Origin: Ilex aquifolium
Lineage: Eukaryota > Streptophyta > Magnoliopsida > Aquifoliales > Aquifoliaceae
Reading direction: 5' to 3'
Assembly (NCBI GenBank): GCA_951799425.1
Contig: OX637394.1
Coordinates: 40,225,642 to 40,289,641 of the forward strand
DNA length: 64,000 bases
Shown here: positions 9,082 through 45,300 of the stretch, piece by piece
Numbering within the stretch: the stretch's first letter is position 1
Layout of the letters: every line of letters starts with the position of its first letter
The notes under the pieces: model-generated
What the model was told of the DNA's origin: nothing
What the model saw: only the letters and a program-made list of their open reading frames with translations
The model's database searches: none
Translations under genes and position numbers: made by a program

Positions 9082-9088
9082 CTCTCCC

Positions 9089-14397: not shown

Positions 14398-14820
14398 CTA
14401 AACCGGACCAAAATTAGTGGCTGAATACTTGAACCGGGTGTGAAACACCTTCTGGATAGATGAACCGGACCAGGGAAGGCTGAGGGACGCCTGAACCGGA
14501 CCAGGAAAGGCTACTGACTGCCTAAACCGGGCCAAGAACACCTGCTGAAAGTTTGAACCGAACAGAAAAATAGGAGCTGAAAGTCTGAACCAGCCTGGAA
14601 GAACTGAACAATGCTGAACCGGAACTAAACAGGACCAGATTGAGGAGAACCGGGTCTGAACCGGACCAGACTGAGGAGAACCAGGTCTGAACCGGACCAA
14701 ATTAAGAAGAACCGGGGCCTGAACCGGGTCTGAACCGGTCTGCTAGATGAACCGGTCTCCTGCTGGACTGGACCAGCTATCTCAACTGGGCTGGGCTGAA
14801 CCGAACTAGACTCGGCTTAA
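14398..14820 (-). repeat. Degenerate GAACCGG repeats in the copia leader
   Basis: The plus strand repeats TGAACCGG(ACCAGG) many times at irregular spacing between the copia gag start and the 5' LTR. It is an untranslated-leader tandem array and has no gene. Confidence 0.7.
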
Positions 14821-15273
14821 AACAATCCAAACCCGCTTAGCCAAATCGACCCAAACTGACCCGCTAAGGGTCGTCTTCTCCACTGCTAGGGTTTTAATTG
14901 AAACCCTGTTGCTCATTGTGTCGCCTCAACGATGCAAACACTCGTCGACAGTGCAGGTTCCCGACGACACAACCACCATGCCACCACAACAAGTCTCTAA
15001 CGATTAGTACAACCACCACCAACGATGTGACAGCTCTACCGCCGACGATGCAACACCACCTCCTCAACAAAGTACGATTAACCTCTACACCACACCCACA
15101 CTTGTGTGGTTATTAAACCAACACCCATGACCTAAAGGCCATGATCGCGGTTCTTGCAACCGAGCCAAGAATCGCAACAGAACAGAACAAAGAAGAAGAA
15201 AATAAAAAAGGAAGAAAAAGTCAAAAATCGAATAATATTTTTTTTTAAAAGGATTAATCTTGATCTGATACCA

Positions 15274-15436
15274 TGTTAAGTTTAGAGAGTTAACACAATA
15301 TTAAAGAAAGACAGAGAGTGATAAAAAACATGACCTACCTCTCACAAACCACTTGTATTTATAGTTAACATACAATAATAAGAAAGACGTATACACCCTC
15401 TTATATTTACACATAATACCCCTAATACTTTTAACA
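15274..15436 (-). repeat. 5' LTR of the copia element
   Basis: A 163-bp LTR with the primer binding site TGGTATCAGATC directly inside it on the minus strand. It is nearly identical to the LTR at 8920. Confidence 0.93.
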
Positions 15437-23787: not shown

Positions 23788-24738
23788 TAAGTACATTATT
23801 TGAATTTTACTGATTTTTTTGTGACATTTTTGTCCTTCATTGATCTATGTGTATTTTTTTTGGAAAGTGGTGCATTAAACATCTCCTAGTTTTATGGGAG
23901 AACTTTAAAAAAATACGTATGAATCAAGGTGCATTAAAGATAATTCAAAATTTAGATAAAAGATTTAACATGAAGTATATATAGATATAAATTCAAACAA
24001 CTATATATATACGAATTTATAAATATATATTTATATATATATACATATATATATAAATTCAAAAAAGTATATATATACGAATTTATATATATATATATAT
24101 ATATATACTTCCTGTTAAATCTCTTATCTAAATTTTGAATTATCTTTAATGCTCTTTGATTCATGTGTATTTTCTTTTGGAAAGTGGTTTTATTTTCAAA
24201 TTATATTTATGCATTAAATATTTAATACTACTAGTTTTATAGGAGAATTTTAATATTTCGTTTATTTTAGAATATATCACTTGTTTGAATTTCAAAATTT
24301 GTTAATATCCGAACTCCATAATATTGTAACAAAAACAGTGTGACAAATACACTGTAACAAAGACAGTGTAACAATACACTGTAACAAAAACAGTGTTCAG
24401 TAGTTTTGTGCATGTGGTAACAAATTCAAAACGGAGATGGACTGATTTGAATGAAATTATATGAAAATATATGTTTGACAAAATGTAATAGTAGAATCTT
24501 TTGTGTATATAGCTTGTTACACTGTTACACTTTTATTGTTACATTATTACACTGTTATTGTTACACTATTACACTATTCGGATATTAAATTAATTTGAAA
24601 ATAAAACCACTTTCCAAAAAAAAAAGCGCATGAATCAAGGTGCATTAAATATAATTTGAAAACAAAATCACTTTCCAAAAAAAATTCGCATAAATCAAGG
24701 GAGAACATACAAATATAGAATATTAAAGTTCTCTCTCA
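23788..24738. repeat. Foldback element with nested inverted repeats (copy 1)
   Basis: Inverted arms include 23912-23970 against 24105-24170 (GAATCAAGGTGCATTAAAGA / TCTTTAATGC...TTGATTC) and 24178-24203 against 24593-24616 (GGAAAGTGGTTTTATTTTC / GAAAATAAAACCACTTTCC). The inner part repeats ACAGTGTAACA and its complement TGTTACACTGT. A second copy in the same orientation lies at 39484-40270. It has no coding content and is most simply a MITE/foldback nest. Confidence 0.7.
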
Positions 24739-25245
24739 TATATATATACTAGCAATTGTCCGTGCCTGAATGCACTGCGTTACTTGTAAAAAATGAACAA
24801 AAAATTCTCCAAAGCAACAACACATATACAAATACATCAGGAAAAAAAATACTAATAGAACCAAATCAAATTTTACAATCTTTAAGTAATAAATGAAATC
24901 AATAAAAATTTTCTTGTATTCGTCACCATTACCATAATCCAATTCAACAACAAAACATAATTATAAACTCAATCCACCAATGTAATAAATATCTCAAACA
25001 AAAAACTATCCACAAATGCAACCATCTACATAATAAAAATAAGTTCACAAATGCTATCAAAAAAATAAGTTTTGCCATTTGAGATTCCACCAGCTTCCAA
25101 AAAAATGAATACGACCTGTATTCATAAAAAATATTATATTTAGATGTTTTTTCATTCTCTAAAAACATACAAATATTTTTTTCAATTCATTCACATTCTA
25201 ATAATAAAAAGATTGAGAAATCATATTTACCTGCAAAATATCGCT

Positions 25246-26530
25246 TCATAAGTTCTGATGTTCATTGTTGCTCTGTTGAGCTTCCCAGTCTTCTAATGCT
25301 CGTAAACAGATTAAGTCATTTTCGATTTCTTCTAACAGATCCTCCAATTCTATCATATCTAGGAAGCCATTCTCGAACTGCATATGAATGAAGTCAATCG
25401 GCCACGAAGATGGAAGCGTGTTAACAACAGCGTACAACATTATTGGATTATTCGGACCAAAACCTTTTTGTCTCAGTTCTCTAAATAATGATTCTTTCTT
25501 TTTTATATGGTCCATGACATCTGATTATGGATCCATTTTCTCTGTCTCAAACTGTATCCACAGTGGATGGATCTTGCGCTCCGCTTCTACTAATAATTGT
25601 ATAAATCGTACCGCACAGGTTGGTCGATCGTGATTAAAAAATTTTTCCTTTGCAGAATCTCAAGTGGTGGGAAGGGTCTCTGCTATTTTCTGCATAATAT
25701 ACTCTTCACTAATGTTTTTCTCTGCATTTTGCAGCATACGACCTAATCTAATTTTTTCAAACCCAAACTCTGAGATTGGGGTTCTATCTTCAAAAGAATC
25801 ATTTTCAAATTTATCTACTATGCTTGATACTGCCAAACGCATACTACGACGTACATAGATGGGAGGGTGTTCTATATTATCTGTACATAATATAAAAGTT
25901 ACAAATTAAATTGATAATAATAAAATTAGCAACAGTTAACCAATATTACAACAATAATTTTTTTTTTACTATCACATGTGATCTAATATTATAAGAATAA
26001 GACCAACAACACACCAATAACAATAAGAAAATAGAATAATTAAAATGTCCATGTTATTATTCATTGTTGCAATATTATTATTGATAATCATAAACATACA
26101 ACAATTAAACCAAGAAGATAGACAACAAATATATAAATCCATGCATATGAATAAAATTCAAAGAATATTAAAATAGTGTGACTTACTCATAAACATTAAC
26201 TGAATGGTTTAGCCTTGCAGCTTGTGATTGAATGTAGTATTAAACAATGTAATTAATGATTCAATCTTCCAGTAGTTCATTGAACTTTTTCTTCATCACT
26301 TTTCTGAATGTTCTTGTGTCAATGCATATGCGAAACCTCAAGTTGGGAGAATGGACAACAACCTAGTTTTACAGGAAAAAAAGAAAAACAAATCTTAGTG
26401 GAATATATAGAATTTATAAAAAAATACAGTTCAATGCAACAATATAAGGATCGAGTTACCTTATTACGATAACCCCATCGGTGAAGTCGCGTTGTATTTA
26501 TTCTTTTCAGCTCTTTAGCCAATTCACACC
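25246..26530 (-). pseudogene. Unrecognised multi-exon coding remnant at the Helitron 3' side
   Basis: The minus strand shows coding-like blocks between the helicase and the Helitron 3' end. One reads AKELKRINTTRLHRWGYRNK and ends at an AAG/GTAACT donor (about 26461). A second, after a TAG acceptor at about 26370, reads VVVHSPNLRFRICIDTRTFR. A third (25842 to 25246) contains RTPISEFGFEKIRLGRMLQN and ends in EDLLEEIENDLICLRALEDW then a stop. In-frame stops interrupt the last block (for example around 25660 and 25530). I do not recognise the family. It may be a captured host gene or an accessory Helitron gene. Confidence 0.45.
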
Positions 26531-26718
26531 AATCCTATAGATATTGAATGATGATAATGTAAAGTTAACATGATTATTTTAATTCTGTATATTCAATATG
26601 AAAATTTTGTAACTAAATGGTACCATTTGTAAATAAATGAATAGGAAGTCTTATAACAAAACTTTAGGGTAAACGATGTTTGATGTGCAATTCGACGCAT
26701 CTTCAGGAAGAAAAACAC

Positions 26719-27417
26719 TTAACGATCAGAAGATGTACATCTGGATAGTGCCACATACAGGTGTCCATTGCTAAACACTGATATGCGCAAATCAACCCCA
26801 ACGAATTTGACAGATTGTCCTTGAGATTTATTGATTGTCATAGCATATGTTAAGCGCACAGGAAATTGACGTCTTGTCATTTGAAAAGGTAATTCTGAAG
26901 ATGATGGTGTAAGTGATATTCTTGGAATGAAGACTAAATTGCCTGATAATGGTCCATTCAGAATCTGAGCTTCAATTACACGTGAGGCACATCTGACAAC
27001 CATTAATCGTGTGCCATTACAAAGTCCATCTTTTGGCACCAAATTGCGCAACAACATTATTGGGCAACTTATTTTTAACTCCAACTTAAATGGCGGTAGT
27101 CCTGAAGGATTTAGAGAGTTTAGATACTCATTCGGAAAACGGTTCATGATAGCATGATCGAGTTTCTCATCTTCTGAAATTTTGTCTGCAGCTAAATATG
27201 TAATAGTATCACCAGGGGATATATTCAATTCTGCAACATTTATAGAACTAACATCATCATTACGTGCAGAAAGAATTGTACGTTCAGTTAGATAATCCGG
27301 GGTCACTGTACCTGCCACATCTAAATGCGGGTAAATTCTGAATATCAATTCTTCTAGATTATGACATTTGTGTATTGTTGATGGAAGTTCTATGATTTCT
27401 TCTGGATTGGTTTCAAC
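26719..27417 (-). CDS. Helitron PIF1-type helicase, C-terminal exon
   Basis: This minus-strand exon follows a 93-bp intron (27418-27510, GTAATAATT...TTTTAG). It encodes the second half of the SF1 helicase: [38 protein letters not shown], then [16 protein letters not shown] (the family's motif V/VI region) and [10 protein letters not shown] near the end. Reading across the intron gives an uninterrupted frame (ANFLMEV then [10 protein letters not shown]). It is part of RepHel and acts in unwinding during rolling-circle transposition, as known for the family. Confidence 0.85.
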
Positions 27418-27510
27418 CTAAAATTAAAATTGGGAAGTAAATTGAGCGAAGAGGAATAAATACTAATAAAAAATAATATTTCATAAAATTATTGATGAAT
27501 AAATTATTAC

Positions 27511-29148
27511 CTCCATTAAAAAGTTTGCAAATGCAGCATTTCTAAAATCCGTGTGAGTTAAGCGCATGTTTAAACCCAGAGTCAAAACATGTATATCCCT
27601 CCACAAAAATGATCGCCTCAACGATGCACCCACAAATTGCTCGCGGACTCCTCTCGATATAACTGGCAAGATTTGTCGAAAGTCTCCGCCAAGCACAACA
27701 GTAATATCCCCAAATGACTTTTTATTATCACGAATATCTTGAAGGGTGCGATCCACTGCCTCAACGCAATGTCTATGTTGCATAGGTACTTCATCCCATA
27801 TTATTAGTTTTGTTTTTCTGAACAATTCTGCATGCATCGATTGTTTGGTAAAGCCACAAATCGAATTCTCAAGCACATTTAAGGGAATACAAAATGTTGA
27901 ATGTTTCGTGCGGCCTCCCATCAATAATAAAGATGCAATGCCAGAAGAAGCAACAGTAACAACAATATGTCCAAGGCTACGCAATTTCATTGCAATTGTA
28001 TTGTAAAAAAATGTCTTCCCTGTCCCGGCACCCCCACTCAAGAAGAAAGTAGTTCCTATATCTTGAAACACTGATGAAGTGATTTCAGCATAAGCAACGT
28101 GTTGTGCATCATTAAGGAGATCAACATTACTTTGTGCATTTGACTGTTGCGCTTCATTCTGGAGTTTTTGATGTTCAAACAATAGTCTATTACCAACTAT
28201 TGCATTCCAATTTTCAATCGGTTGTGGCATTGGTGAGAAGTCAATTAAGCTTTTGCCTAACTCGTGGAGCAATTGATTCAGCAAATATAAACCATAATCT
28301 TCGATTTGATCCTGAATTGGATTTGAAATACCAAACATTGTACGAATCTTGGGTTTAAGATCATCACATATATGCACTGAAAACTGGTTCCATAATACAA
28401 GTGGATATAGCGGAGAGTATTCAGTTAGAATAATACCGAACAATCTCCTCAACTGGTGTCCCGTTTTCATAATTGAAGCCTCTTGAAGACATTGTATCCA
28501 TTCGACATCATCTTCTAGAAGACTTCTTGCAACACATGCAGATTTGAAAGAATCATACATAACGTTGTTTACTGTGCACATGTTATCAAATGATGTTGGT
28601 CCTTTGACAACTGTTAGTAGCAAACGCAGATAAAAACGCTCACCTGAATTTGGGCTTGCAAAGTACATCCTGCCAATTACATACCCCCTTTGTCTAGGTG
28701 TCCATATTGTGGTTTTCTTGTTCCAAACGAATTTTTCTGGAAATTCTTGATAGGTTAATGCACGTGCAGATTCATTCTTAGCACAACCTTTGAAGAAACC
28801 AATCAAAGTTGTATCACGTTGTGCACCTCTTGAAATGATTGATTCAAGCGATTCGTCCGAATTAAAAACAACACGATGCATCCCTGGTAAATGAAGTTCC
28901 AAACGTATAACCGATGGAATCTCTTCATGTAAAGGATTACCAAATATTTGCCAAGCAGCCTCTGGAGATCCAATATACCTTGCATCAAGATATTGTTGAA
29001 TTTCATTTCCTCCTCCCAACACCATAGTGGTGCGATCATGGCCTTTATAAATGTACTTATGGATGTATTTCACGCATCTTATTCCCGCACAAACTTCCAC
29101 ATTAATATGACAGTTGAACATTCTTGAAAGATAAGGATTGTATGGCAC
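27511..29148 (-). CDS. Helitron Rep C-terminal part and helicase core
   Basis: A long minus-strand open exon of about 545 residues. It begins with the Rep tyrosine-region motif [13 protein letters not shown], then a linker. The helicase follows with Walker A GGAGTGKT, Walker B IIWDEVP, and [20 protein letters not shown], typical of PIF1/RRM3-like helicases in plant Helitrons. It ends at a GT donor at 27510 and continues at 27417. This piece has no internal stop, so the helicase core looks intact. Confidence 0.9.
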
Positions 29149-29271
29149 GACATCTCTATTATCAACTTCTTGGCCCTTAACAGTATAAACATGACTATTA
29201 TCACGACGACGATAAACAAGATATCCATCATCGTCTATGCTTGTTGATTCTACAAATGTCCGAGGGTACCT

Positions 29272-30482
29272 TTAAGTACATACACCATTTTCCATACATA
29301 ATGCATGTGGATTTCGAACACCACATGGTCCATGTACCATACAACTCTTGATTGTATAAAAAAGAAGAGGATCTTTGTCTGGATCAGGAAATTCAGCACA
29401 CACTACCTTGTCTACCTGAGAACATATCTGTATTTTGTCTAGACCATGAAGGAACAAGAGTGCATGCATGTGTGGTAGCCCTCATTTTTGAAATTCAATC
29501 GTGAAAACATGTGCTACCTTTTTACCAAATATGTTTTTCGTCTCTATCATCTTCATCAAAAACCTCCTCTTTAACTCAAAAACACGGCAACTAAATCTGG
29601 ACAATCAACATGTTGTTGATGTTCTAACAGAGCTGAAGAAATTTCAGGCCAATTAGGATTTGTAGTCATGGTGAGAAAAATATCTGAGTGTTGGTTGTAA
29701 CGTGTGATAGCCATTGAATCTTGATAGATTTCAAACATATGTTTTGCACTGCCAGTGAATGAAGATGGCAAAATCATTCGTTGACCAATTTGATCAGGTC
29801 TCGATTCATCTGCACAAACATCGGTAAGTCCCTGGAAAAGTTCTACACGGAGCTTTGCTTGATTAAGCTTATAATATGTCAATCGATTTTGTTCAGTAGA
29901 GGCCCAAGCATCTACTACGAACTCCTGAAATAATTTTCTCCCTCTCAAAATTGTTGAATACTCAGTATCACGTTGAAACATGTGATACCTATAAAATTGC
30001 AACTAAGTCAATCGATTGGTTGAAGGTCCACCATGAGATTCGTCCCACAGTCTCAATTCAGGTTCTCATCCAAGCTCATCATAAGGAAACAGTAACACAT
30101 AATGTAGAGGTAAATATACAGGGTGACATTCATTAATTTGTATCAGCCCATTATTCTCTCTCATATGTAAAACGATATCTCTCATTCCACTTAATTCAGT
30201 TTCATCGCCCGGTAATATTACCGTAATTCCATCTGTTATTGGGAGATTATACCGACGTCAATCTATGGAAGAACTGTAACGAAGATAAGCAGGCAAATTT
30301 TGACCTGCCACGTCTGATTGACTTAAAATCTCATAAGCCTGCTGATATTTTTGTGGAAATGGATTTACGTGCAACAAACAATCTTGAATAATTTTCAAAA
30401 CATCCCGTTGCAAGTGAGGATTTCTACGACTACGAATGTCTAAAGCTGAAGTAGAGTCATAAATGTATAGTTGGGAGTACAC
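29272..30482 (-). pseudogene. Helitron Rep (HUH) domain, interrupted
   Basis: The minus strand encodes the Helitron_like_N/Rep region: FLTMTTNPNWPEI (about 29650), a GLPHMHALLFL block holding the HUH motif (His-Met-His, about 29464-29475), then CMVHGPCG and NPHALCMENG. In-frame stops occur in it, including one just before GLPHMHAL (TGA at 29482-29484) and one near 29273, and 30002-30250 also needs a frame change. The nickase is therefore probably inactive in this copy unless the gene is spliced differently. Role by family: nicks and joins at the Helitron ends. Confidence 0.8.
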
Positions 30483-30497
30483 CGCATCTTGACCTGG

Positions 30498-30833
30498 TTA
30501 TGGCAGAAGTGATCCAGTCCGATGTCGTAATTCTCCATGAATAGTGAATGATGTAGGACCCCTTCCAGTGATTAATCTTGAATCCAAGGTAGCACCAAGA
30601 CTTGTAAAAGCATTTGCTGCATTATACTCGCAGGTATGTTGACGAAACGATTTTGATTGTTCATCATTGCCATCATACAACGCCTTAAGTGCTGAAGGAG
30701 GTGTATTAAGTGGTGGTATTCTAATTTTTCCTTGTAAACAACATGTTCCAAACAGAGGGTGTCCTGCAGGGGAATGTGATAATTGTTCAGCCTTCCAATG
30801 TAAAGCTGAACAATGAGGACATGGTACATTCAT
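30498..30833 (-). CDS. Helitron N-terminal zinc-finger-like exon
   Basis: A minus-strand open block of 111 residues with CPHCSALHWKAEQ, then HPLFGTCCLQGKIRIPPLNT and FTSLGATLDSRLITGRGP. This Cys/His pattern followed by FTS.G is the standard region just ahead of Rep in plant Helitrons. It probably joins the downstream Rep coding with a change of frame near 30490. Confidence 0.75.
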   Translation of the reverse strand: MNVPCPHCSALHWKAEQLSHSPAGHPLFGTCCLQGKIRIPPLNTPPSALKALYDGNDEQSKSFRQHTCEYNAANAFTSLGATLDSRLITGRGPTSFTIHGELRHRTGSLLP

Positions 30834-30985
30834 AATTCCGAGTGAATGGCGACCTTCTACTCCGTGTGTTCGAGGATCAAACCCAACACTACATAAATTA
30901 AAGTTAAATATATAAGTTAAAAACTTGTGGTTATAGTGATGCCTTCAATCAAGCTCATAAATAATAACATTAAAAAAGCTGTAAT

Positions 30986-31290
30986 TTATAACCACCTGGA
31001 GGGAGCTTGCATCATGCTACATTCGTCTAAATTCGACATTTCTTGGAATATGGTCGTAATAGACGATGACCCCGTTTCATTTATTACAATTTGTTCTACT
31101 GCTTGCATAGGGATTTCCATGGAACAAATGGAGGGTGGTTCCATTTGCGCCGTGGTGCCTTCGCCGAGATTGCCTTCGCCTAATTTTTGTGGAGACATTT
31201 TTCGAGGCATAATGACCACAGATGATGACCTTGTCAAATTTAATTGCACAGTTTGTTCTGCTATACAACCTCAGGAATTTCCGTAGGCAT
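30986..31290 (-). pseudogene. Second copy of the Helitron N-terminal linker module
   Basis: The minus strand has RSSSVVIMPRKMSPQ, then GEGNLGEGTTAQMEPPSIC. This parallels GSSSLPTMLRENPPH and EGNFVEGTSVQSTPPSIG in the first module (32021-32200). Together with the second KRQLAQRARRERERS this shows an internal duplication of one or more exons. It may be used as coding sequence or be a leftover. Confidence 0.5.
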
Positions 31291-32344
31291 GGGATTTGGA
31301 TTGAACAAAAGATCTTTTGACTGTCGATCTTTCTAGTTGAGCTAGATGACGGCGGCTCGGTGTCAACCTAGGAAAAATCCTAGGTTGAATGCATGGACGT
31401 TCCGATCTCTCCCGTTCCCGACGTGCACGTTGTGCTAACTGACGTTTTGATATATAATAATTATCGTTGGATGTCTACAACATAATTAAAAGAATCATCG
31501 TTGTGAACATAAGCAATTATATATAAATTTCTTAATTGTTGAATTCGACATTCATACCACTTGAGGTTCTGTATTTTCTTTTCCTTTGCCAGAAGAGCGT
31601 ACTTTTTCTTTTCCTTTAGAGTTAGCGGTCACCATGGTAGTTGCCTTTCTTTTTTCCTTTCAACAAAACAATATGTGTAAGTTAAAAACCATTCTAGTTA
31701 AAAAGCATAATGCATATATCATTATATTTAAACTTCTTGTTACCATTTCAGATATGTGAAGGCGGTTAAGCTCATGTTCATCACGAATCACAACGCCTAC
31801 GTTGTTTTTCCGAAGTAACTAGACCTAGAAATTTTAAAAAATGTAAAACTAAATTGAGCGATATGAAATAAGAAGTATCAAATGAGTCATAAGAATATCG
31901 ACTTACTGCACGATCTAGGTCATTATCCATCTGTGGAAAGATGGTTAAAAAAATTGTAATTAGTGAAGGATTATATATTATGAAAGGTTGTAAAAGAAAT
32001 CTATTAGAGAAAGATCTTACATGGCCAAAAATAGTAATGTTGTTCATGGCACCAATGGACGGTGGTGTCGATTGCACCGAAGTGCCTTCAACAAAATTGC
32101 CTTCATAAAGATTATGTGGAGGATTTTCTCGAAGCATTGTAGGTAGAGATGATGACCCGAAGACATTTGTTTGAATAGATTTTTCAGCTAGAAACTCAGG
32201 AATTTGTCCAGGCACAGGAATTTGTGCAAGCACAGGAGTAGACTGACTTGTAAGACGTGCCGATCTCTCACGCTCCCGACGTGCACGTTGTGCCATTTGA
32301 CGTTTTGTTAAAACATTATCGTCGATTGCCATTGCGTTCGACAC
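31290..32344 (-). CDS. Helitron N-terminal basic exons (putative)
   Basis: The minus strand starts at an ATG (32344) with MSNAMAIDDNVLTKRQMAQR then ARRERERS, and reads to a donor at 32019-32020 (CAT/GTAAGA). Plausible small exons follow: 31907-31930 (MDNDLDRA, between CAG and GTAAGT), about 31749-31812 (LLRKNNVGVVIRDEHELNRL, donor ATG/GTAACA) and 31560-31634 (MVTANSKGKEKVRSSGKGKE). A further exon at about 31476-31290 has a second KRQLAQRARRERERS module. I infer that these are 5' exons of the Helitron gene. The KRQ.AQRARRERER motif is common in plant Helitron proteins. Confidence 0.5.
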
Positions 32345-32582
32345 TTTTTTTTTTCCCTTTAAAATACAATAAACATGAGATCATAAGAATTTCAATCTAT
32401 ATACATAGTTACAGCTTCATTCAAAAAAATAGCAAGGAAGTACAGTTTTCACTTTCTTTGGCAAAAAAATATGCAAGTTACCTTTTTTTTTTTGCTGCAT
32501 TGTTTGGTTTTGAAATAGATACAACTTATTTGGGGTTTGTTATAGTTTTTGGTTTTAGTTTGGTTTATTACAGAGATTTTGA

Positions 32583-33420
32583 TTTAAATTATTGATGAAC
32601 TAAATAATGTTTAAGATATTTATGAACTAAATAATGTTTAAATTATTTATGAACTAAACAAAGTTTAAATTATTTATGAACCACATAAAGTTTAAATTAT
32701 TTATGAACTAAATAATGTATAAATTATTTATGAACTAAATAATGTTTAAATATTTATGAACTAAATAATGTTTAAATATTTATGAACTAAATATTGTTTA
32801 AATTATTTATGAACTAAATATTGTTTAAATTATTTATGAACTAAATAATGTTTAAATTATTTATGAACTAAATAATGTTTAAATTATATAGGAACTAAAT
32901 AATGTTTAAATTATATAGGAACTAAATAAAGTTTAAATTATTTATGAACTAAATAATGTTTAAATTATTTATGAACTAAATAATGTTTAAATTATTTATG
33001 AACTAAATAATGTTTAAATTATTTATGAACTAAATATTGTTTAAATTATTTATGAACTAAATATTGTTTAAATTATTTTTGAACTAAATAATGTTTAAAT
33101 TATTTTTGAACTAAATATTGTTTAAATTATTTATGAACTAAATAATGTTTAAATTATTTATGAACTAAATAATGTTTAAATTATTTTTGAACTAAATATT
33201 GTTTAAATTATTTATGAACTAAATAATGTTTAAATTATTTATGAACTAAATAAAAGTTTAAATTATTTATGAACTAAATAAAGTATAAATTATTTAGGAA
33301 CTACATAAAGTTTAAATTATTTATGAACTAAATAATGTTTAAATTATTTATGAACTAAATAGTGTTTAAATATTTAGTTCATAAATAATGTTTAAATTAG
33401 TTATGAACTTAATAATATTT
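32583..33420. repeat. 27-bp AT-rich minisatellite, about 30 units
   Basis: The unit TTTATGAACTAAATAATGTT then TAAATTA repeats with few changes for about 840 bp. Near the right end (33363-33385) a unit appears in inverted orientation (TTTAGTTCATAAATAATG). It lies upstream of the Helitron gene start, inside the element. Confidence 0.95.
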
Positions 33421-33661
33421 AAATAACCAATCCAATAACAACAAAATATTTAATTGTAGCTCACAGATTCTCAAATAAAACATAACATGGATTAACAAAC
33501 TAAAATACAATATAGACCAACTACCAATGTTGGTAACATTTCAACATCGATGCAAGATGAAATTTTCAGAGGAATAAATATACGGAGCATTTTATTTCAA
33601 TAGAATATCCATTTCTAGTTGGAAATTAAAGGCCAGGAAAATTAAGCCTGAGAGCATTTAC

Positions 33662-33731
33662 CTGGTTCACGGCGATTAGTGTGGACAACTATAATAGAAG
33701 TGAAGTCCTTCTTCTTTGCATATTCCACAAT
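33662..33731 (-). pseudogene. Captured RPF1 exon (Brix domain piece)
   Basis: A 70-bp minus-strand exon between acceptor TTCTGCAG and donor CCAG/GTAAATG. It encodes IVEYAKKKDFTSIIVVHTNR then REP, a close match to the plant ribosome production factor 1 (RPF1) stretch that precedes DALLI...LP.GPTAHF in the Brix domain. RPF1 acts in 60S ribosomal subunit assembly in the nucleolus. No neighbouring RPF1 exons are visible, so this is a fragment carried by the Helitron, in the same orientation as the Rep gene. Confidence 0.8.
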
Positions 33732-34436
33732 CTGCAGAAGCAACAGGATAAAGGCTTGAGTTGCATATCTAATGTCTTATATATCGTTATATACTCTAAA
33801 AAAATATAAGATTCTATCCAAAGCAGAATCGAACACTAATCATGCAATTTATAGACATCGTGCAATGCAGAATCGAGCACTAATCATGCAATTTATAAAT
33901 TAAACCAATCTAAACTCTAAGGACCCTTCATATCATATAAGGTCAGTCACTATTTGTCCAACAGCGGGACAGTAACCATTAGGCCAACCACTAACCTCGT
34001 TCTTCATATCATATAACTATATAAGCTCGCAAGAAGGAAATACAGACCAATAAGAGGACAGTGAATGAGGGAAGACTTCAAATTTTGCTGACTTTGCACA
34101 ACAAATGAAATCTTGATCAAGAGTCTACTGTAATTTCAGAGTTCAAAGTGAGGGCAAGCAGTGTCAGATTATCAGCATTACTCAAACTCACCATTATAAC
34201 ATAATAAGCTATAAAATTGATATGAAGTTAAATAAGTCAATCAATCAAAACTCCATATGGGTAATTGGGTGTCACGATTACACTTGTGGAATACAACCAA
34301 AAAATTGTAATTTTAGAACTCAGACATGAGAATATCAAATGCTTAATAAGAATCTTAAAAAACCTTAAAGGAGGGAATGGGAAACACATTAATGAGCAGA
34401 AAATGCAATTAAAGCATGATATTACTAACATATATC

Positions 34437-35268
34437 CCGCCTATTTAACTAACATATATCCCGTGATAGTCCGCTCAAGACACCAAACATTTAACTAACA
34501 TAATAATCATGGCCACCTAATGGTGATAAGACATGTGGTTCAAAGACATGTTATGAAGTCCATCTGCACTGGATTTTCTAGTCTGCACTGGATTGTTCTG
34601 TCTTGGCATGATGGTGGGATATGCAAGCACAGTCTGATTGCATGGTCTGTTCCTGCACTCCTCATTTGCAGGACTGTATGCACTGGTTAATGCTGCACTG
34701 GACTGGGACTGCTCTTCAACTCATACAGCTGGGGTTTGCAGGCAGGATCTGTTTCAAATTTTGGACACTATACTGTAATTAGAATTGGTTAATTGTGCAA
34801 CCTCCTAATCTGAATATACTCCTAACCTCCTGATCAGTTTCTGAATATACTCCTAACCTCCTGATCTGTTTATGCACAATTGACAGAAGATTGAAAGTGC
34901 AACCTCTAATCCACCACCTTAAACTGGACCATCAATGGCAGCAACTAAAGGTTTTCTTGCAGCTAACCAGTGAATGAATCAAAAAAATGATTAACATTAG
35001 GAGAAGCTCGAGATAACGGGAAAATCAAAAAGTGGAATACCTTCAGAAATGTCTGTGACAAATTCTATTGACATAAAAGCAATCTCTATTTGCTCTGTTA
35101 TGAACCATATATCCTGCCCATTTAACTAACATATATCCCGTGAAAGTCCGCTCAAGACACCAAACATTTAACTAACATAATAATTATGGCCACCTAATGG
35201 TGATAAGACATGTGGTTCAAAGACATGTTATGCAGTCCATCTGCATTGGATTTTCTAGTCTGCACATT
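34437..35268. repeat. About 160-bp direct repeat pair inside the Helitron
   Basis: 34437-34595 and 35107-35265 share TTTAACTAACATATATCCCG through CCATCTGCA and TTTTCTAGTCTGCAC. The captured hydratase exons lie between the two copies. Confidence 0.85.
34895..35085 (-). pseudogene. Captured enoyl-CoA hydratase (MFP2/AIM1-like) exons
   Basis: Two minus-strand exons. 35041-35085 (after an AATAG acceptor, donor GAAG/GTATTC) encodes IAFMSIEFVTDISE. 34895-34962 (acceptor GGTTAG) encodes AARKPLVAAIDGPV then, after a TAA, GGGLEVAL. Joined across the 78-bp intron the sequence matches plant peroxisomal multifunctional protein (SIDIISDLLEAARKPSVAAIDG...LGGGLELA), which hydrates enoyl-CoA in beta-oxidation. 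The TAA replaces the Leu codon (TTA) expected in LGGG, so the copy is inactive. It lies inside the Helitron. Confidence 0.8.
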
Positions 35269-35289
35269 GATGGGTCATGTGCAGTAGAA

Positions 35290-35660
35290 CACACGTTTTG
35301 CAATTCATTTCATAATCTGGCCACCCGACTAAACCCCATACCCACTTTTTGCGTCCTCGTAAAAGTTTTAAAAGCCTCAAAGACTATCTTTTCGAACAAA
35401 CCCAGCAATCAATGAGTTCCAATAAACAAACATCTCTTTGTGGCATATTTTCAAATATCATAAATACATCTCCCAAATACCCAAACAAACGGATCACCTT
35501 GAATGCCATCTAGAACTCTAAGTTACCCTGTTTAACTAAACGGGACAGCATGTCGCAGTAGATAAGCAAAAGCTTCTTTTGAAACCACAATTCTTGAATA
35601 CCCATTTTCCGTTGTCACCCACACTGAACCTTATCTGCTTAGTCACATATGGAGTCACAA
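35290..35660 (-). pseudogene. Captured pentatricopeptide (PPR) gene fragment
   Basis: The minus strand contains pieces of PPR repeats in shifting frames: NGYSRIVVSKEAFAY (about 35560-35610), then CDMLSRLVKQGN, IFENMPQRDV (35428-35459) and YWNSLIAGFVRKDSL (about 35375-35425). These fit the P-L-S pattern (MPQRDVVSWNSLIAGFV) of organelle RNA-editing/processing PPR proteins. At least two frameshifts and several stops make it a dead fragment. It lies inside the Helitron, in the same orientation as its gene. Confidence 0.65.
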
Positions 35661-38045
35661 ATCGAACTTGGCGTATGAAACTTGAAACCAAAATCAAATA
35701 CTTAAAAAGGTATAATCTTTAGGAATGGTTTGATGCTTTTGGATGGAAGCTGTGATGAGAAAGCTAGAGAGAGTCACATGACCCATCAATGTCAACTTAA
35801 GTAGCAAACAAAACTATATGACCAGTGACAAATCAAGCAAATGTTAAATGTTAAATGCAGTCCAAGCAAATAAGCAGATATAGAACTTGTAGTTACATGT
35901 TAAATGACTGTTAAATTTGCCTTTTTTTTTTTTTTACATCATAATGCATTTAAAAATAAAGCTAAAGAAATTATAGCAAAATTTGCTTATTAACAGAATA
36001 CCAAACAGTCATAGTATGGATATGAGATATATATGTCAAACAAAATTACATGTCTTACAATTCATAAAATACTACTTGAAAGCTAGGATACCACCTTAAA
36101 TTTCTTGTGTTGCACAAAAGGTTTTACAGTCGGTGAAAAGACTCAAGAATTTTCTATGATACAGGAAAAATACAAAGGAACGCAGAAGAAAGCTCCATGC
36201 CAGAGCAATCAAGAAGCTGTTGTCAGGGCAATAGGTGAACAGTGACTGTTCACCCTGATGCATCCAGTATTACTCAAACTAACCATTTTAACATAATAAG
36301 CTATAAAATTGAAAGGAAATACAGACCAATAAGAGGACAATTGAAGCAGTCATAGTTGAAGCAGTCAAACCTTAATTGCCAGTAAACCCATCTCAATCCA
36401 TCTAGAGTCAAAAAATCACTAAAAATATATATTTTCTAGTAACAGCTAATAAGCATTTTTCACTCACATACGCACACTCATCAATTATCTGTTTTCCTCT
36501 TTTTCTCATATAACCTAATAGAAAACTTCATTAGAAATGGAAATTACAGCTCATATATGAATACAAACCTTTTAGTTGGGCTGCAATGACAACATAGCTA
36601 GTATAAACCAATCATGCATGATTAATAAAAAAAAAAATGAGGATCACTGTGTTGACTTCAATTTAGTTGTTTACTTAAGTTCTTTTGGAGTCCATGGATC
36701 TGTGGCCAATAAAAAATTCAAATTAAACCATCTAGAAGTCGCATTATAAGATGTGTAAGCTAACATACAAAACTCAAACAACATACTTCAAACGAAATTC
36801 CTACCATGACAAAGACATTGTTGAGTCAAACAATAATCTTCTTCAGAAAACATTGCTAAGCAAAATGCATAACATTCATTATCATACAATGATCATCGAA
36901 CAAACTCAAACACATCACTCACCCCAGATATTCCAAAAGGGTCCAAATCATAGTAAAAAAAAGTGAGGTGGTGCAGTAAGTTATGTGTGTCTCGCCTATG
37001 ACCATTCTACAAAAGGAAATATATTTAATAATCTACCTTGATGCATCCAGCAGGGAGAACAGTCACATGAACAGTGACTGTTCACCCTGATGCATCCAGC
37101 AGGGAGAAGAAGAGGGCAAGCAGTGTCAGATTATCAGCATTACTCAAACTAACCATTATAACATAATAAGCTATAAAATTGAAAGGAAATACAGACCAAT
37201 AAGAGGACAGTTGAAGCAGTCATAGTTGAAGCAGTCAAACCTTAATTGCCAGTAAACCCATCTCAATCCATCTAGATTACTTAAAACAAAAGAAAACAGA
37301 TGATAACAGTGTAGATTATTAAATTCAATCTACAATGACCACTCAATTTTAAATGAGGGTAATCGCACCTAATAATGCGACTTATTTTTAAGGTAATCAT
37401 ACTATGTTTTTATTCGAGATGAGCAGAGCGACATCCTGTTACTTCTCTACAATGGTGTTTAATGGTGCGGGTGAACCATTAAACACATCTGTTTTCAAAA
37501 ATCAGTGGTGGCAAACCACATATCACATAAATATTTGATTGTCTGCTGAATAATCTGATATTTAATAATCTTATTTCCTGCAGTCTGAATAATCTGATAA
37601 CAGTCGCATTATCAGGTGTCTGCTGAGTAATGCTGCAGTGGTGTTCTTTACAGTGGTGGATGCATCAGGGTAGCTTACTGTTGGGCTTCTTTACAATGGT
37701 GGGTTCTACAATGTACATTATTATAATGTGCATAATAATGTACTATCAACCCATTTGATCGTGATTCAGGGGCATTTGATCGAACAGCTTGTGGGCAGAA
37801 GAGCAAAACCAACCCAAACAAAATTCAGAGCAGAATAAATGCACATATCACAGCAAAATGTGTCCAATCCAATACTTGATTGGCAACAGAGGCAAAGAGG
37901 CAACAAAGGTTAAGATCTGAACCGTATGTTGGGGCTGGCGCCCGCGAGAGAGAGAGAGGAGGTGGTAGAATTTCAAAGCATAAACCAATATAGGAAAATA
38001 AAACAACCAATACAGGAAAATAAAACAACCAAAAAAGTAAGACCA

Positions 38046-38430
38046 TCAAAATAAAATATGCATAATTTTGGGGGGTAGGGGTTCGGGTGAGTATGGGTGT
38101 GTGTTGTGAATAAGAGCAAGAATAGAGAAGAGAAAGAAAAGAAAGGAGAGATGGGAGAGAATGAGACTAACCTTGGAGAATGAGAGGCAGCCGGAGTTGC
38201 TGATAGAGGAGAGAAGAGGAACCACAGGAAAACCAAACTCAACCAAACGAACTATAAGATTGTGGAAGAGATAACAGTCTACCATCCCTGTTGGGAGAGA
38301 TAGAAGCGTGAGAGAGAGAGATGCGTGATAGATTGGGAGAGAGAAGCGTGAGAGAGAGAGGCATGAGAAAGAGAGAGGCGTGAGAGAGAGAGAGACGCGC
38401 GAGAGATAGGCTTCTTCATGGGCGGGAAAA
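38046..38430 (-). other. GA-rich leader-like block near the Helitron 5' end
   Basis: The minus strand is CT-rich at 38290-38400 (GAGAGAG on plus), followed by a short open stretch ending CTCATTCTCCAAG at a GTTAGT donor-like site (about 38172). This looks like the 5' UTR and first exon of a captured gene, but the encoded peptide is not recognisable. Confidence 0.3.
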
Positions 38431-38674
38431 AAAATTTAGAACTAATCGTAGACCATGGGATCAAAATTTTTTGAGATGATCTGAACCGTCTTTTATGTTG
38501 GGATTACGTTGTCCGTTAGATTTGTCTCAAAACGATCTGGACCTCTCTTTGTCTTTTGGATTCAAACTTCGCTCTACTTTATTTTATATATATATACTTG
38601 TTACTTGTTTGAATTTATATATATATATATATATAAATACGTATTTATATATATATATACATGTTTATATGTAT

Positions 38675-39483
38675 TAACAAATACACATTAATCAAGGTGC
38701 ATTAAAGATAAGAGATTTTGAATTAAATGACCCTAAAATGGGCATTTACGTCTTTGTATCTCAGCTGTGTACTTTTTTCCAAAACATTTTGTTCTATGTA
38801 TTTTTTGTCAAATAAGTCTAATTAAGTGTACCGGCTTCCAAAGAACCCGTTTTTTTGGAGGGGTTTGGATTGACTTGTCTAAATCCTTTCAAACCTAAAG
38901 ATGGAATTCAACATTTAATATTGTTCATACTCATGTTTGGTATGCGCAGGGATATATGACTATTATGATAATATATATGTATATAAATGACTATTGTGTC
39001 CCTTAACCAATTTAATCTAAACATGAGTATGGATATATGAGGGATATAAATATCACTTGAATGTGAAACCCCCAAACCCACATATGAAACCCACCCCCCA
39101 TGGGTTTCATGAAACCCATGAACTTGGGTTTCATAACCGGGTCATGACCAGGCCAGATTTCAAACCCTAAACTACATGCATAGTTATCAAATATGGATTT
39201 AAGGGGGTTTAGTTCCCAACCCATGTTCCAAAACTCCCCAAAATCCACATACCAAACAGCCCCTAAATGTCTTCCCGTCACCAATTTGTTAGAGAAAATT
39301 TTAAAAGAGTTCTTTGGAAGCCGGTACACTTAATTAGACTTATTTGACAAAAAGTACGTAGAATAAAATGTTTTGGAAAAAAGTACACAGCTGAGATACA
39401 AAGATGTAAATGCCCATTTTAGGGTCATTTAATTCAAAAACTATTATCTTTAATGCACCTTGATTCATGTGTATTTGTTAATA
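38675..39483. repeat. Large inverted repeat (arms about 180 bp)
   Basis: 38675-38856 and 39309-39483 are reverse complements at roughly 95% by eye, from TTAACAAATACACAT to CCGGCTTCCAAAGAAC. The 450-bp loop starts CCCGTTTTTTTGGAGGGG and has AAACCCA-rich sequence, with no gene. The most likely reading is a MITE/foldback element. The RepHel Helitron ends about 85 bp to its left. Confidence 0.85.
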
Positions 39484-40385
39484 TATATATATTTGTTTGA
39501 ATTTATATATATATATACTTGTTATTAAATATCTTTTCTAAATTTTGAATTATCTTTAATGCACTTTGATTCATGCGTATTTTTTTTTTGGAAAGTGATT
39601 TTATTTTCAAATTTTATTTATGCATTAAATATTTACTACTACTAGTTTTACAGGAGAATTTTAATATTTCGTTTATTTTAGAATATATCACTTGTTTAAA
39701 TCTCAAAATTTGTTAATATCCGAACTCCATAATAGTGTAACAAAAACAGTGTAACAAATACACTGTAACAAAGACAGTGTGACAATACACTGTAACAAAA
39801 ACAGTGTTCAGTAGTTCTGTGCATGTGGTAACAAATTCAAAACGGAGATGGACTATTTTGAATTAAATTATATGAAACTATATGTTTGACAAAATGTAAT
39901 AGTACAATATTTTGTGTAAATAGTTTGTTACACTGTTATTATTACATTATTACACTATTCGGATATTAAATTAATTTGAAAATAAAACCACTTTTCAAAA
40001 AAAAAAACGCATGAATCAAGGTGCATTAGATATAATTTGAAAAAAAAATCACTTTCAAAAAAAAAATACGCATGATTCAAGGTGCATTAAAGATAATTCA
40101 AAATTTAGATTAGAGATTTAACAACAAGTAAATATATATATATATATGGAATATTAAAGTTCTCCCATAAAATTAAGAGATGTTTAATGCACCACTTTCT
40201 AAAGAAAATACACATAAATCAATGGAGAATTAAAATGTCACAAAAAAATCAGTAAAATTCAAATAATGTACTTAAATACAAATAAGTATCAAAATTGAAG
40301 ACTTAATTACCCAATATTTTTTTCTGTATATTTTTTTACAATTAAATCTAATTTGGTATATCCCTCCCAATTTCTCCATCGTAAA
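39484..40385. repeat. Foldback element copy 2, with the PIF empty site
   Basis: This matches 24075-24738 in the same orientation, and 40180-40385 matches 21290-21405 plus 23788-23895 in inverted orientation. In the latter the PIF element is absent and a single TTA (40272-40274) marks its target. No coding signal. Confidence 0.75.
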
Positions 40386-40408: not shown

Positions 40409-40789
40409 GTGCTCATGGACGAAAAAGGTCGCTGTCCTGTTTTGTTTGGGGGAGTCAACAACCGTTCTCCTTTAACTCTAGCAATGGTTCATCCTTACAC
40501 TGATTCTCCGCTAGAAAGAAAGGGACACCCAACTCGAACAATGGTTGATTCTAACACTGATTCTCAAATCTCTCAAGATTTGATCACTCCTCTCAATACC
40601 CATTTCGCCTCTCACTCCAAAATCCTCCGCCATGGAACCACCACCACCAAAATCCTACTGGCGATTCAGCAAACAAGACTTTTTCCCAGAACCCTCCTTC
40701 CAAACCCTCTCCACTTACAGAACAGCCCTGTCGCAAACCTGTCACCGTCTCAAAGACCGTCTTTTTGGCCGCTCGACCGATGCCACTGA
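40409..40789 (+). other. Overlapping upstream ORF on CAT copy 2
   Basis: This frame contains the ancestral CAT start (MVDSNTDSQISQDLITPLNT from the ATG at 40541). It leaves the transporter frame after a 1-base insertion in an A run (CCAAAATCC at 40617-40625, against CCAAATCC in copy 1) and stops at 40789. A 60-bp partial duplication of the start region precedes it: ATGGTTCATCCTTACACTGA at 40483 resembles ATGGTTGATTCTAACACTGA at 40541. If transcribed, it would compete with the start at 40632. Confidence 0.7.
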
Positions 40790-42380
40790 GCTCATTGACC
40801 TCAAAAAACAATCTGAATATGACATGAAGCAATGTCTCACATGGTGGGACTTGATTTGGATGGGTTTTGGCGCCGTTGTTGGGTCTGGGATTTTCAGTAT
40901 CACCGGTCAAGAAACACACAACGATGCTGGCCCAGCTATAGTCCTTTCGTATACCGCTTCAGGCCTCTCTGCGTTGCTATCAGTGTTCTGTTACACTGAA
41001 TTTGCTGTGGAAATACCTGTGGCAGGTGGGTCTTTCTCATTTCTTCGAATCGAGTTGGGTGATTTTCTTGCTTTTATAGCTGCTGGTAATATTTTACTAG
41101 AGGCCGTTGTTGGTGCTGCTGGGTTAGGGCGTTCATGGTCTTCTTATTTTGCTAGTATGATAAAATCTGATGCCGATTTCCTTAGAATTCGAGTGAACTC
41201 CTTTGCTGAAGGGTTTAATTTATTGGACCCAATTGCGGTTGTGGTTTTAGCGATTGCCAACACTATAGCTATGAGTGCGACACAGAGGACATCTTGTTTG
41301 AATTGGATTGCTTCTATTTTCAGTGCTGGGGTCATAGTTTTCATTATAATTGTTGGGTTTCTTCATGCTAAGAGCTCGAATTTGGTACCCTTTTTCCCAT
41401 ATGGCTCTGAGAGGGTGTTCAAAGCTGCAGCAGTTGTGTATTGGTCTTATACTGGATTTGATATGGTTGCAACTATGGCTGAAGAGACTAAGAACCCATC
41501 TAGAGATATACCGTTGGGTTTGGTTGGTTCAATGTCTATTATTACTGTGGTGTATTGTTTGATGGCATTGGCACTTGTCATGATGATTAATTATACACAG
41601 GTAGATGTCAATGCAGCCTATTCAGCGGCATTTGAGAGAATTGGGATGAAATGGGCTAAGTATTTGGTGAGTCTTTGTGCTCTTAAGGGAATAACTACAA
41701 GTATGCTCGTTGGTTCTATGGGGCAAGCTCGATACACGACTCAGATTGCGAGAGCTCATATGATTCCCCCCTGGTTTGCTCTTGTACATCCGAGAACAGG
41801 AACCCCCATAAATGCTACTCTATTGGTGACTATAATTAGCTGCATTGTTGCTTTCTTCTCGAGTTTGGATGTTTTAACTAGTGTGTTATCATTTAGCACA
41901 CTCTTCATTTTCATGCTTATGGCTGTTGCATTACTTGTTAGGCGATATTATGTAAAAGATGTTACTCCAAAGCATGGTTTAGTTAAATTTCTTTTGTGCC
42001 TTTCTGTTATTCTGGGTTCATCAATTGTGATAATAGCACTTTGGAGTTCTAATAAGAGAGGATGGATTGGTTATGCAGTGGCTGGTGCATTCTGGTTAAT
42101 GGGTACGCTAGGGATGGTGTTGCTTCCAAAGCAGAGGGTTCCAAAGGTTTGGGGTGTTCCACTTGTTCCATGGTTGCCATCATTGTCAATCGGGATGAAC
42201 GTGTTTTTGATTGGATCCTTGGGTGGGGTGGCATTCTTGAGGTTCTTCATATGTAGTGCTGTTATGCTAGTTTATTACCTGGTGATTGGCGTCCATGCAA
42301 CTTATGATGTTGCCCATCAAGGTAACCAAGAAGGGAAAATTGAAGACGGTAAAGGAAATGCCAATCAAGAAATTTCGTAG
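40632..42380 (+). CDS. Cationic amino acid transporter, CAT1/5/8 type (copy 2)
   Basis: An intronless 582-residue transporter, nearly identical to copy 1 from the Pro run onward (about 26 differences). All family motifs are kept: SYWRFSKQDFFPEPSF, CLTWWDLIWMGFGAVVGSGI, MAEETKNPSRDIP, GQARYTTQIARAHMIPP and the C-terminal PKVWGVPLVPWLPSLSI. A 1-base insertion puts the ancestral ATG (40541) out of frame. The start chosen here, ATG 40632 in CCGCCATGG, is a new Met where copy 1 has GTG (Val). The resulting protein starts MEPPPPKSYWRF, close in length to AtCAT5-like proteins. The shared sequence with copy 1 starts only about 40 bp before the ATG, so the promoter differs. Function as for copy 1; expression is uncertain because of the upstream ORF. 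Confidence 0.88.
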   Translation: MEPPPPKSYWRFSKQDFFPEPSFQTLSTYRTALSQTCHRLKDRLFGRSTDATELIDLKKQSEYDMKQCLTWWDLIWMGFGAVVGSGIFSITGQETHNDAGPAIVLSYTASGLSALLSVFCYTEFAVEIPVAGGSFSFLRIELGDFLAFIAAGNILLEAVVGAAGLGRSWSSYFASMIKSDADFLRIRVNSFAEGFNLLDPIAVVVLAIANTIAMSATQRTSCLNWIASIFSAGVIVFIIIVGFLHAKSSNLVPFFPYGSERVFKAAAVVYWSYTGFDMVATMAEETKNPSRDIPLGLVGSMSIITVVYCLMALALVMMINYTQVDVNAAYSAAFERIGMKWAKYLVSLCALKGITTSMLVGSMGQARYTTQIARAHMIPPWFALVHPRTGTPINATLLVTIISCIVAFFSSLDVLTSVLSFSTLFIFMLMAVALLVRRYYVKDVTPKHGLVKFLLCLSVILGSSIVIIALWSSNKRGWIGYAVAGAFWLMGTLGMVLLPKQRVPKVWGVPLVPWLPSLSIGMNVFLIGSLGGVAFLRFFICSAVMLVYYLVIGVHATYDVAHQGNQEGKIEDGKGNANQEIS

Positions 42381-45300
42381 TTGGTATGATATTAGAACTT
42401 ACGGTGATTGGCATTATAGTTCATATTGCTTCCGACTTTTTGTGAATAGCTTGAATTCTTATGTCCTTTTCCTATTTAAATCCTCTCTCTTACAAACTCG
42501 AGGGAATTAATCGGACCTTCAATCTATTCTCTGTAATGGTTGTAATATTTACAATGCAATTGTACTTTTAGTCGAAAATGCTCTTTTTTCTTGGTCATGA
42601 TGAATTCTGGTCTTCATGATGCTTTTAATGCAGCTATTAGATGCAACACGAATCCACACTCTTGAAATGGCTGTAGCTAAATTTGGTATATTAACTTTAT
42701 GTCCTTTTAGTTAAAATATCCCTGTGGTTAACTAAACGCATGTTCCTAGAAGGCTAGAATTCCTTCTTCTGTACTTAGAGAAGTAAAATTTGAAGGGAGA
42801 GAAGTAAATACTACTATGTGGCTCCATCTAGATATGATGGTATAGAATTTTGTTTTTGGTATGCACATTACTAATATTTTAGTAGTGTGCTAATATTATA
42901 CTTCTGCTTTTATTAGGAAATATATGATAGGTATACCTAAGGTATTTATGATATTGAGAAGAAATCATATAATACATTTTCCTCTTTGTTTCTACTTTTG
43001 TTCCTTCTACCCTAATTGGAGTTAACTTTATCTTGTTAGAATTAGATTACAGGTTGAGCCAACTTTCTCAGAGCAGATTGACCTTTGAAATGTTTGTGTA
43101 ATGTTCTGATATTTGAGGTCTTAGTTATGTGTAGATCACTCTGTAATGTATTGTGCTGAAATGAAATTATAGAGAGGATCTATTTATCATAGTTATCATT
43201 TTTATTCCTTTTGCTAGCCTTTTTGCTATGATGTTCGTAAGATTAAACCACTGTCATCAAACTTCCAGTAAAAAGAAAGAACACTTATTTTTTCCCTACC
43301 ACAAAATTAGTGCATTAATTATGGTTTACTTTCTGTTTTTTGGTCTCTGCGCTTATACGACTTGTTAGATGAAGCAGGAAACAGAATTCGAGAGGGGGAA
43401 AAGGAAATTCCAATCAATTGTTCTATGGCAGGTATGATGGTGTGTAATTTCAATTTTTAAACAATCATTTCTGCAATTATAGCGATCTTGCTCAGAATAA
43501 TATGCAAATTATAAACAATCAAAAAAAGTATATTCTATAAACTTTATGGGGAAAAAGTGTGATAGATTCTTAGGGTATATATTATTGAGATGTGACAATG
43601 TAGTATCTTTCCCTTGTCGTTTTGACTTTTATTTCCTCTTGCTTATTGGATTAAACCAAAATCAACTTTCTCCTCTAAGGTTCAAGTAATTTTCTCAATG
43701 CTTGATCTTTATTTTAATTGAATCATGTCATAATATTTGAGGTTCTACTTTAGTAAGTATGCCGAACACCAAGCCTTGGTGTTAAACTCTGATAAAGAAA
43801 GGGGAAGCCTCAAATGGTGGAGGTTGAACTAGCATTGATATTCTGATCCTCACTTTGTAAGCTCATAAACTCTGAATTAGAATCACCTTTCTGTACATTA
43901 AAGTATGATTAATTTTCATTATGCCTCCATCATTAGCAGGTATGCATTTTCTTTTGCTTCTTTTTTTTTTCTTTGAAATTCTTCAGCAGATTGTGGTTTG
44001 GTGAAGATCAGATCAAAATATTGACCACTTCCTTTGGGTAAGTATTTTAAAGATGTGCTTAACCAGCTGGATGGCAAGACGAAATGCAAAGGGATATGCG
44101 CAATATGAGGGGGAAATATTGCTTCACCATAATGAGACCAGCAGTAGCAGCAGTTGTGTAAGTAATATATGGAAAGAAGATAAATCACGTAGCAAAAGAA
44201 CTGTTGCGGATTTAAATGAAAGTTACTAAATGAAGGAATAAAATTCTGCGAAAACTGGCTGGCTAGTATAGAATTGGGAATCTCGTATGTTATGTTTACT
44301 TCCAGCTCGATAGTAGAGAGATTGTGGCTGGATTTTTGTTTGAGAATTTTAGTTTTTGCTTTGCATTCATCTGGTTTTGTAAAGGATTATAGGTGGACTG
44401 GAGGTATGCCAAGGGGCCTAAGCAGAGTTTTAGAATGCCCTCAAAATCTTGTACATATTTCGTTTATACGATGCACGCTTGCCTACTCAAGAAAAGCTAC
44501 ATTTACATCAATATACTAATTTTTTTTTCAATTATTTCTGATTTACATTGACGTGTCTAACCTACTTGCCCTTGGGGAGCTGCCAAGTGGTTTGTGGAAT
44601 GATTTCAGATTTCAGACCTTATAAGGACTAGTCTTTTACCAGCACCATCTACCACTCATCTTTGGCGAGGTTTGAACCTGAAACTTTCTAGTCGGGGAGG
44701 TAGGCCTTGGTCATCCGGACTAACTACGATGGTTACTTAACTCTAATATTTTGTAAAATTGAAAAGTAAAGAACAAGTTGGAGCTTTAAAATTAACAATT
44801 AAAGAGATTATTTCTATCTTAGGAAGTGGTTTGAACTGATACCACTTATAATATGTGCTGTATATTCAGTATGTGAGATATATGAAGTTTCATTACTGGT
44901 ACCTTGTGTTGTGAAAGAAGATTTGGTTCCTTTGATTACTAAGATTCAATTTCATCAGCATGTTCAAATGCAGTATGATAAAAATAGTGTTTCTGTGTTT
45001 GATCACTTTTTACTCAATGCCAAATGTTTGTTCATTGTTTTGGTTCAAGGGACTTGGTTTTGTGTGTGTGTGTGTGTGTGTGTGTGTAGACAATGCAGGT
45101 CAGAGAAGTGGGCAATTTATGAGAAAATAAATTACACATGGAAAATGTAGATCATATTTGTGAATGTGAAATTCGAGTACGAAATTAAGGTTGGTCAAAA
45201 TAAAAAAAAGATGTATTTAGTTGAAATGGTGTATTGAAAGAGGTGGCAAATAATAAGAATCATCATGTTGTAGAAGATAACAAACCCTTCTTCGATTGTG

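Follow-up and report, generated by a model that had tools for sequence, protein, structure and literature searches.

The window, by which we mean the whole stretch of 64,000 nucleotides of Ilex aquifolium DNA that was analysed (C4:40225642-40289641), contains on its minus strand a Helitron whose insertion site is an AT-rich part of a fold-back, MITE-like repeat, hereafter the target repeat. Remains of a Rep/helicase coding region lie inside this element together with exon pieces of RPF1, MFP2 and PPR type, all on the minus strand and therefore in the same orientation as the helicase and, as the sequence-only reading of this DNA had stated, the Rep gene. The features, in window coordinates, are as follows:

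23788..24748, no strand: one part of the target repeat, outside the Helitron, with an inverted arm at 23788-23908
24749..38592, minus strand: whole Helitron, ~13.84 kb, its ends set by sister copies
24749..24777, minus strand: 3' terminus, with the imperfect hairpin GTGC-ATTCAG-GCAC, then CTAG, then host T (24748)
25249..25905, minus strand: second reading-frame region, between the helicase and the 3' end, also present in sister L014
26719..30944, minus strand: decayed RepHel region identified by Pfam domains, with several stops and a frame change
within 26719-27417, minus strand: Pif1 2B domain (PF21530, E 6.5e-17)
within 27481-29271, minus strand: PIF1 helicase (PF05970, E 1.2e-70)
29574-30002, minus strand: Helitron_like_N (PF14214, E 2.5e-34)
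32583..33424, no strand: minisatellite of 27 bp, ~31 copies, separating the Rep region from the RPF1 module
33425..33895, minus strand: RPF1 module common to sister elements, made up of the exon 33731-33662 and what is left of the intron
33731-33662, minus strand: RPF1 exon, 70 bp, starting in phase 0 and ending in phase 1, with acceptor AG and donor GT present
34895..34962, minus strand: MFP2 exon 2 piece (translation AARKPLVAAIDGPV, a stop, then GGGLEVAL) with an acceptor AG, a TAA in frame at 34921-34919 and no donor GT
35041..35094, minus strand: MFP2 exon 1 piece (...SIEFVTDISE) with its donor GT; where it starts was deduced from an AG that the gene also has
35387..35509, minus strand: decayed PLS-type PPR piece with a broken frame, from PDB and Pfam searches
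38577..38592, minus strand: 5' terminus, from comparison with sister termini; family TCTATATAATAAAG, here TATATATAAAATAAAG
38613..40274, no strand: other part of the target repeat, outside the Helitron, with an inverted arm at 40154-40274; its extent past 38853 is inferred

The ends of the window Helitron rest on its sister copies, since its own 5' dinucleotide is TA and shuffles of the same sequence fold as well as its 3' hairpin (z 0.22, with -0.83 for L020 and -3.42 for L028). In the sister copies the family sequence starts with TCTATATAATAAAGTAGAGCGAAG and ends with GTGCCTTCAGGCACGGGCAATGACTAG or near variants, and the 3' hairpin reads GTGCCTTCAGGCAC, of which the window has an imperfect version followed by CTAG at 24752-24749. 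At the 5' terminus the family TC is read as TA and two extra A are present; because of the TA repeats this end (~38592) is placed to within a few bases. Among the terminus rows of the fetched loci, leaving out those that begin part-way through the terminus or match it only over a short run of A and T, TCTATATAAT was present in 19 of 20, preceded by A in 14, by G in four and by C in one of the 19. At the 3' end, CTAG is followed by T in the window and in six of the eight sister matches covering most of the 3' query, the exceptions being L010 and L022. The family termini have the form expected of Helitrons, i.e., TC at the 5' end, CTRR after a short hairpin at the 3' end, and insertion between A and T; for target-site duplication, the L022 paralogous site was compared with the window junction, and both lie in TA repeats that make them unreadable to the base. 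The four cases of a preceding G are head-to-tail junctions (L011, L012, L016 and L024), in which CTAG is joined to TC with no host bases between; the window copy itself has no such junction. Head-to-tail Helitron junctions have been reported from maize and bat, and ours resemble the maize ones in that CTAG is joined to TC, giving a G/T junction, and differ from the maize case in that the four lie in fetched sister loci and none at the window copy (PMC2267711, in excerpt). As sequence features, they would bear only indirectly on rolling-circle (peel-and-paste) transposition.

At L022:79-1451 the target repeat has a paralogue with no Helitron at the corresponding point; there the equivalent of 38848-38613 continues directly into that of 24748-23976; the last ~20 bases before the window 5' end are unaligned, and the junction lies in TA repeats. 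This copy is itself interrupted at another point by an insertion of ~8.3 kb with a family Helitron copy (L022:1451-9769), so that the target repeat has been hit more than once. Near the Helitron, fold-back, MITE-like repeats with inverted arms of 120-230 nt were observed, among them inner arms at 38623-38852 and 39303-39532; they probably represent the target repeat together with additional nested copies. Farther out, on the plus strand, a duplicated gene region lies on either side of the Helitron (5268-8919 and 40505-44163, 94% identical), with homology running on to 17683 and 46270, respectively; we take the duplicated gene to be cationic amino-acid-transporter-like. The first duplicate alone contains an element at 8920-15436 with terminal repeats (8920-9081 and 15274-15436) that are 98.8% identical, presumably Copia-like, and the second duplicate has a 5-base overlap at the matching site.

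The coding region of the Helitron combines Rep with a Pif1-like helicase, as RepHel proteins do, with broken frames in the window copy; given its several stops and its frame change, the element is probably no longer autonomous. Pfam gave nothing better than E 0.17 for the second reading-frame region (25249-25905), and RPA was absent from the window reading frames scanned with Pfam. The 27-bp minisatellite was also matched in some sister copies. A search of the whole window with Rfam at gathering scores returned no matches.

The RPF1 exon is preceded by TTCTGCAG and followed by GTAAATG, with the translation IVEYAKKKDFTSIIVVHTNRREP. Using an RPF1 protein as tblastn query, we found an RPF1 gene at C1:11589256 (~11.59 Mb; L026) with exons on both sides of the corresponding one; that exon (C1:11589491-11589559) encodes the same residues bar one and lies between neighbouring RPF1 exons, which bears out the proposal that an RPF1 exon resides in the Helitron. 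The next exon of the C1 gene occurs at a single place in the genome. Searched alone, the window exon had no match in PDB or Pfam. Over the module, identity is 91.6% to L030 (286 bp) as against 81.6% to the RPF1 gene (174 bp). Since the module is closer to the two partial copies L029 and L030 than to the gene, its direct source may have been another repeat, i.e., the RPF1 sequence may have been acquired second-hand. L029 and L030 were rejected as RPF1 genes in their own right, as they have two RPF1 exons without the middle one and no later exon in the 5 kb fetched. They are repeat copies on different contigs (L029:1-2735 and L030:2-2833), 96-97% alike until the match ends; the element type and ends of this repeat were not found.

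For the hydratase-like piece, the sequence-only reading had left the choice between MFP2 and AIM1. The peptide across the 35041/34962 junction, with X at the stop, matched Arabidopsis MFP2 (2wtb) at E 1.3e-8, the next best PDB match being at E 0.007, and on this basis we assign the piece to MFP2; the two consecutive exons with their intron (35094-34895) were confirmed. An MFP2 gene in which both exons are matched and further MFP2 exons follow lies at C4:1213719, on the same contig as the window and 39 Mb away, and the following MFP2 exon was also matched at four other places with 63-75% identity. L034-L036 have a 719-bp stretch of the MFP2 gene, 87-88% identical and bounded by the same two edges; the window piece is a trimmed part of this capture. 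A Helitron 5' end is present in L036, and none was seen in the 3.3 kb of L034 or of L035. In the window, homology to exon 2 stops exactly at the exon end of the gene. The same edge, exactly at the end of exon 2, was observed at L034:1546, L035:1724 and L036:1546 (gene, L040:1726). Because the right capture edge coincides with the end of exon 2, the donor of that exon is missing, so that the claim of intact splice sites stands for the RPF1 exon and for the inner MFP2 intron and fails for MFP2 exon 2. The in-frame stop of exon 2 is shared by all ten non-gene copies that reach the codon, and the gene has no stop there.

The third piece (~35509-35387) is a frame-broken PPR fragment, as had been suggested. 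With X at the frame break it matched the designed PLS-type PPR repeats of 9kfx at E 1.1e-17 summed over three repeats, the best single repeat scoring 19.7 bits; Pfam PPR_2 gave E 0.014, under the model cut-off, and the 41-aa open part alone had no Pfam match. At the protein level the piece occurs at nine places in the genome, and no PPR gene or donor was found among the five that were read (window, L019, L037, L056 and L057). L056 and L057 share the frame break and contain a Helitron 5' region. The places C1:42.759 Mb and C4:49.040 Mb were considered as PPR donors and discarded, both having that 5' region and that break. The parent genes expected in the same genome were thus located as related genes for RPF1 and MFP2 and not for PPR. 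The description of the three genes as unlinked is loose, as the MFP2 gene shares the contig of the window; the RPF1 gene is on another contig.

Our searches covered the 800-Mb genome (103 contigs). The exact 33-bp family 5' end was found 258 times, and a reversed control pattern not at all. The RPF1 exon occurs at 32 places, comprising the gene (L026), the two partial copies (L029 and L030) and 29 copies including the window, all 29 with Helitron-like flanks on at least one side and three with a truncated exon (L053-L055). Of the non-gene RPF1 loci, 19 were fetched at ~10 kb, and 16 of these have a Helitron terminal region, with both ends in at least nine; none was seen in the ~10 kb of L018, L019 and L025. 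The MFP2 piece occurs at 12 places, one of which is the gene. The cargo is mosaic: RPF1 and MFP2 are combined in L014 and L032, RPF1 and PPR in L019 and L023, and MFP2 and PPR in L037. All three pieces were found in the window copy only, among stretches read of 0.3 to 10 kb each, and other such copies may exist beyond these stretches. Around the RPF1 exon, 18 of 19 Helitron-type copies are 95-99% identical to the window (L028, 91%), on which basis the capture looks older than much of the spread of the family.

The proposal that the pieces derive from host exons and lie within a Helitron is well founded, given the related RPF1 and MFP2 genes elsewhere in the genome, as in gene-capturing Helitrons generally, and the target-repeat paralogue without the Helitron. 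Based on these data, we consider it very likely that the window holds a degenerate, formerly autonomous member of a large Helitron family, whose cargo stems from separate, old captures and whose modules are now a mosaic. A single-event origin of the RPF1, MFP2 and PPR combination is unsupported, since sister elements have some of these modules and lack others. Host DNA would have been picked up in separate, old events during rolling-circle copying; family members would then have multiplied, dropped different parts and exchanged segments, so that present-day copies would be mosaics of the same modules and the window pieces pseudogene remnants. Transcription through such an element could give RNA spliced at the surviving sites and would be expected to give no readable fusion of three genes.

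The occurrence of RPF1 without Rep in many sister copies, together with the inverted repeats of 121 bp (93% identical; 23788-23908 and 40154-40274) that flank the whole region, could also be taken to mean that the gene pieces form part of another element, a Pack-MULE or an additional Helitron, inserted into the Rep-bearing one or enclosing it. We regard this as quite improbable, because the arms are outside the ends of the Helitron and are assigned to the target repeat: they are missing in eight of the nine sister loci with two ends, and a target-repeat copy is present in the ninth, L022. A Pack-MULE would have its captured DNA enclosed by terminal inverted repeats of its own, which these arms are not, and Rep-less sisters have 5' and 3' ends of the window type with the RPF1 module in the same order. 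The sequence-only reading had envisaged read-through transcripts that join the three pieces; that such transcripts form a functional chimeric coding RNA is less credible still. Chimeric transcripts do come from maize Helitrons (PMC4528327, in excerpt), all gene pieces lie on one strand, and the acceptor and donor of the RPF1 exon as well as the inner MFP2 intron sites are intact, so that spliced RNA from the captured pieces is possible. A readable fusion, however, is not supported by the reading frames: the stop in MFP2 exon 2 is common to the ten non-gene copies that reach it, this exon ends without a donor, a direct join of MFP2 exon 1 to the RPF1 exon loses the reading frame and runs into stops, the PPR piece has a broken frame, and it is in the window alone, among the stretches read, that the three pieces occur together.

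There is also little probability, in our judgement, that the RPF1 exon is kept by selection within a transcript of the Helitron itself, e.g., as a 5' exon upstream of Rep, even though it lies on the same strand and upstream of the Rep region in the Rep-bearing copies (window, L009 and L013) and has a similar position in those lacking Rep. Among 15 copies with intact flanks, the exon has four non-synonymous and seven synonymous changes and a rate of 0.157 per site, about half that of the flanks (0.30 and 0.315; Fisher p 0.06); this subset, however, was picked after the data had been seen. It was used because copies with non-homologous flanks inflate the flank rates in the full set, and it drops 11 of the 26 copies, either for a flank below 88% identity or for one too short in the fetched piece (e.g., L052). 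All 26 full-exon copies, a count that excludes the truncated exons of L053-L055 as well as L029 and L030, gave 14 non-synonymous to nine synonymous changes (p 0.05-0.14, depending on transition bias), and the three further copies with a truncated exon also speak against constraint. Moreover, at least 258 family 5' ends stand against about 29 RPF1 exon copies, and five of the eight other Rep copies (at least 94% identity), i.e., those on C5, C2 (49.8 Mb), C7, C16 and C4 (14.4 Mb), have no listed RPF1 exon within 100 kb, which argues that the exon is not a needed part of the Helitron. The substitution counts leave selection on the exon ambiguous. There is equally little probability that a single RPF1 exon is under coding constraint in one Helitron lineage as an exon of the element's transcripts; if true, a ribosome-biogenesis peptide would be spliced into Helitron products.

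That Helitrons capture genes was already known, and capture from more than one gene is documented in plants. In maize and rice, fragments of several genes are found in a few elements, and after duplication the maize copies lose different parts of one and the same capture (Sweredoski et al. 2008, PMC2575219, in excerpt). The Helitron described here resembles these gene-carrying elements in having several exons per gene and in the retention of differing portions of the same capture by different copies; unlike the non-autonomous elements treated in that study, it combines RepHel remains with RPF1, MFP2 and PPR pieces. With the rice family DHH_Mothra it shares TC...CTAG ends with a hairpin, blocks of tandem repeats and a captured gene fragment that predates the radiation of the family; the DHH_Mothra mother element, however, has a PHRPA gene and no RepHel, whereas the window has RepHel and no RPA in the frames scanned with Pfam (Roffler et al. 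2015, PMC4683698, in excerpt). A literature search for Helitrons with RPF1 or 'ribosome production factor' returned no Helitron paper among the matches listed.

The window is a further case of an established process, namely capture, amplification and trimming of host sequence in plant Helitrons, and it opens no new question. It provides a detailed example of host exons being gathered, trimmed and reshuffled in a family of plant Helitrons, the same genome also offering two related genes and a target-repeat paralogue. It also illustrates a hazard for annotation: splice sites or open frames survive in many of the 29 RPF1-exon and 11 MFP2-exon copies, so that these could pass for genes.
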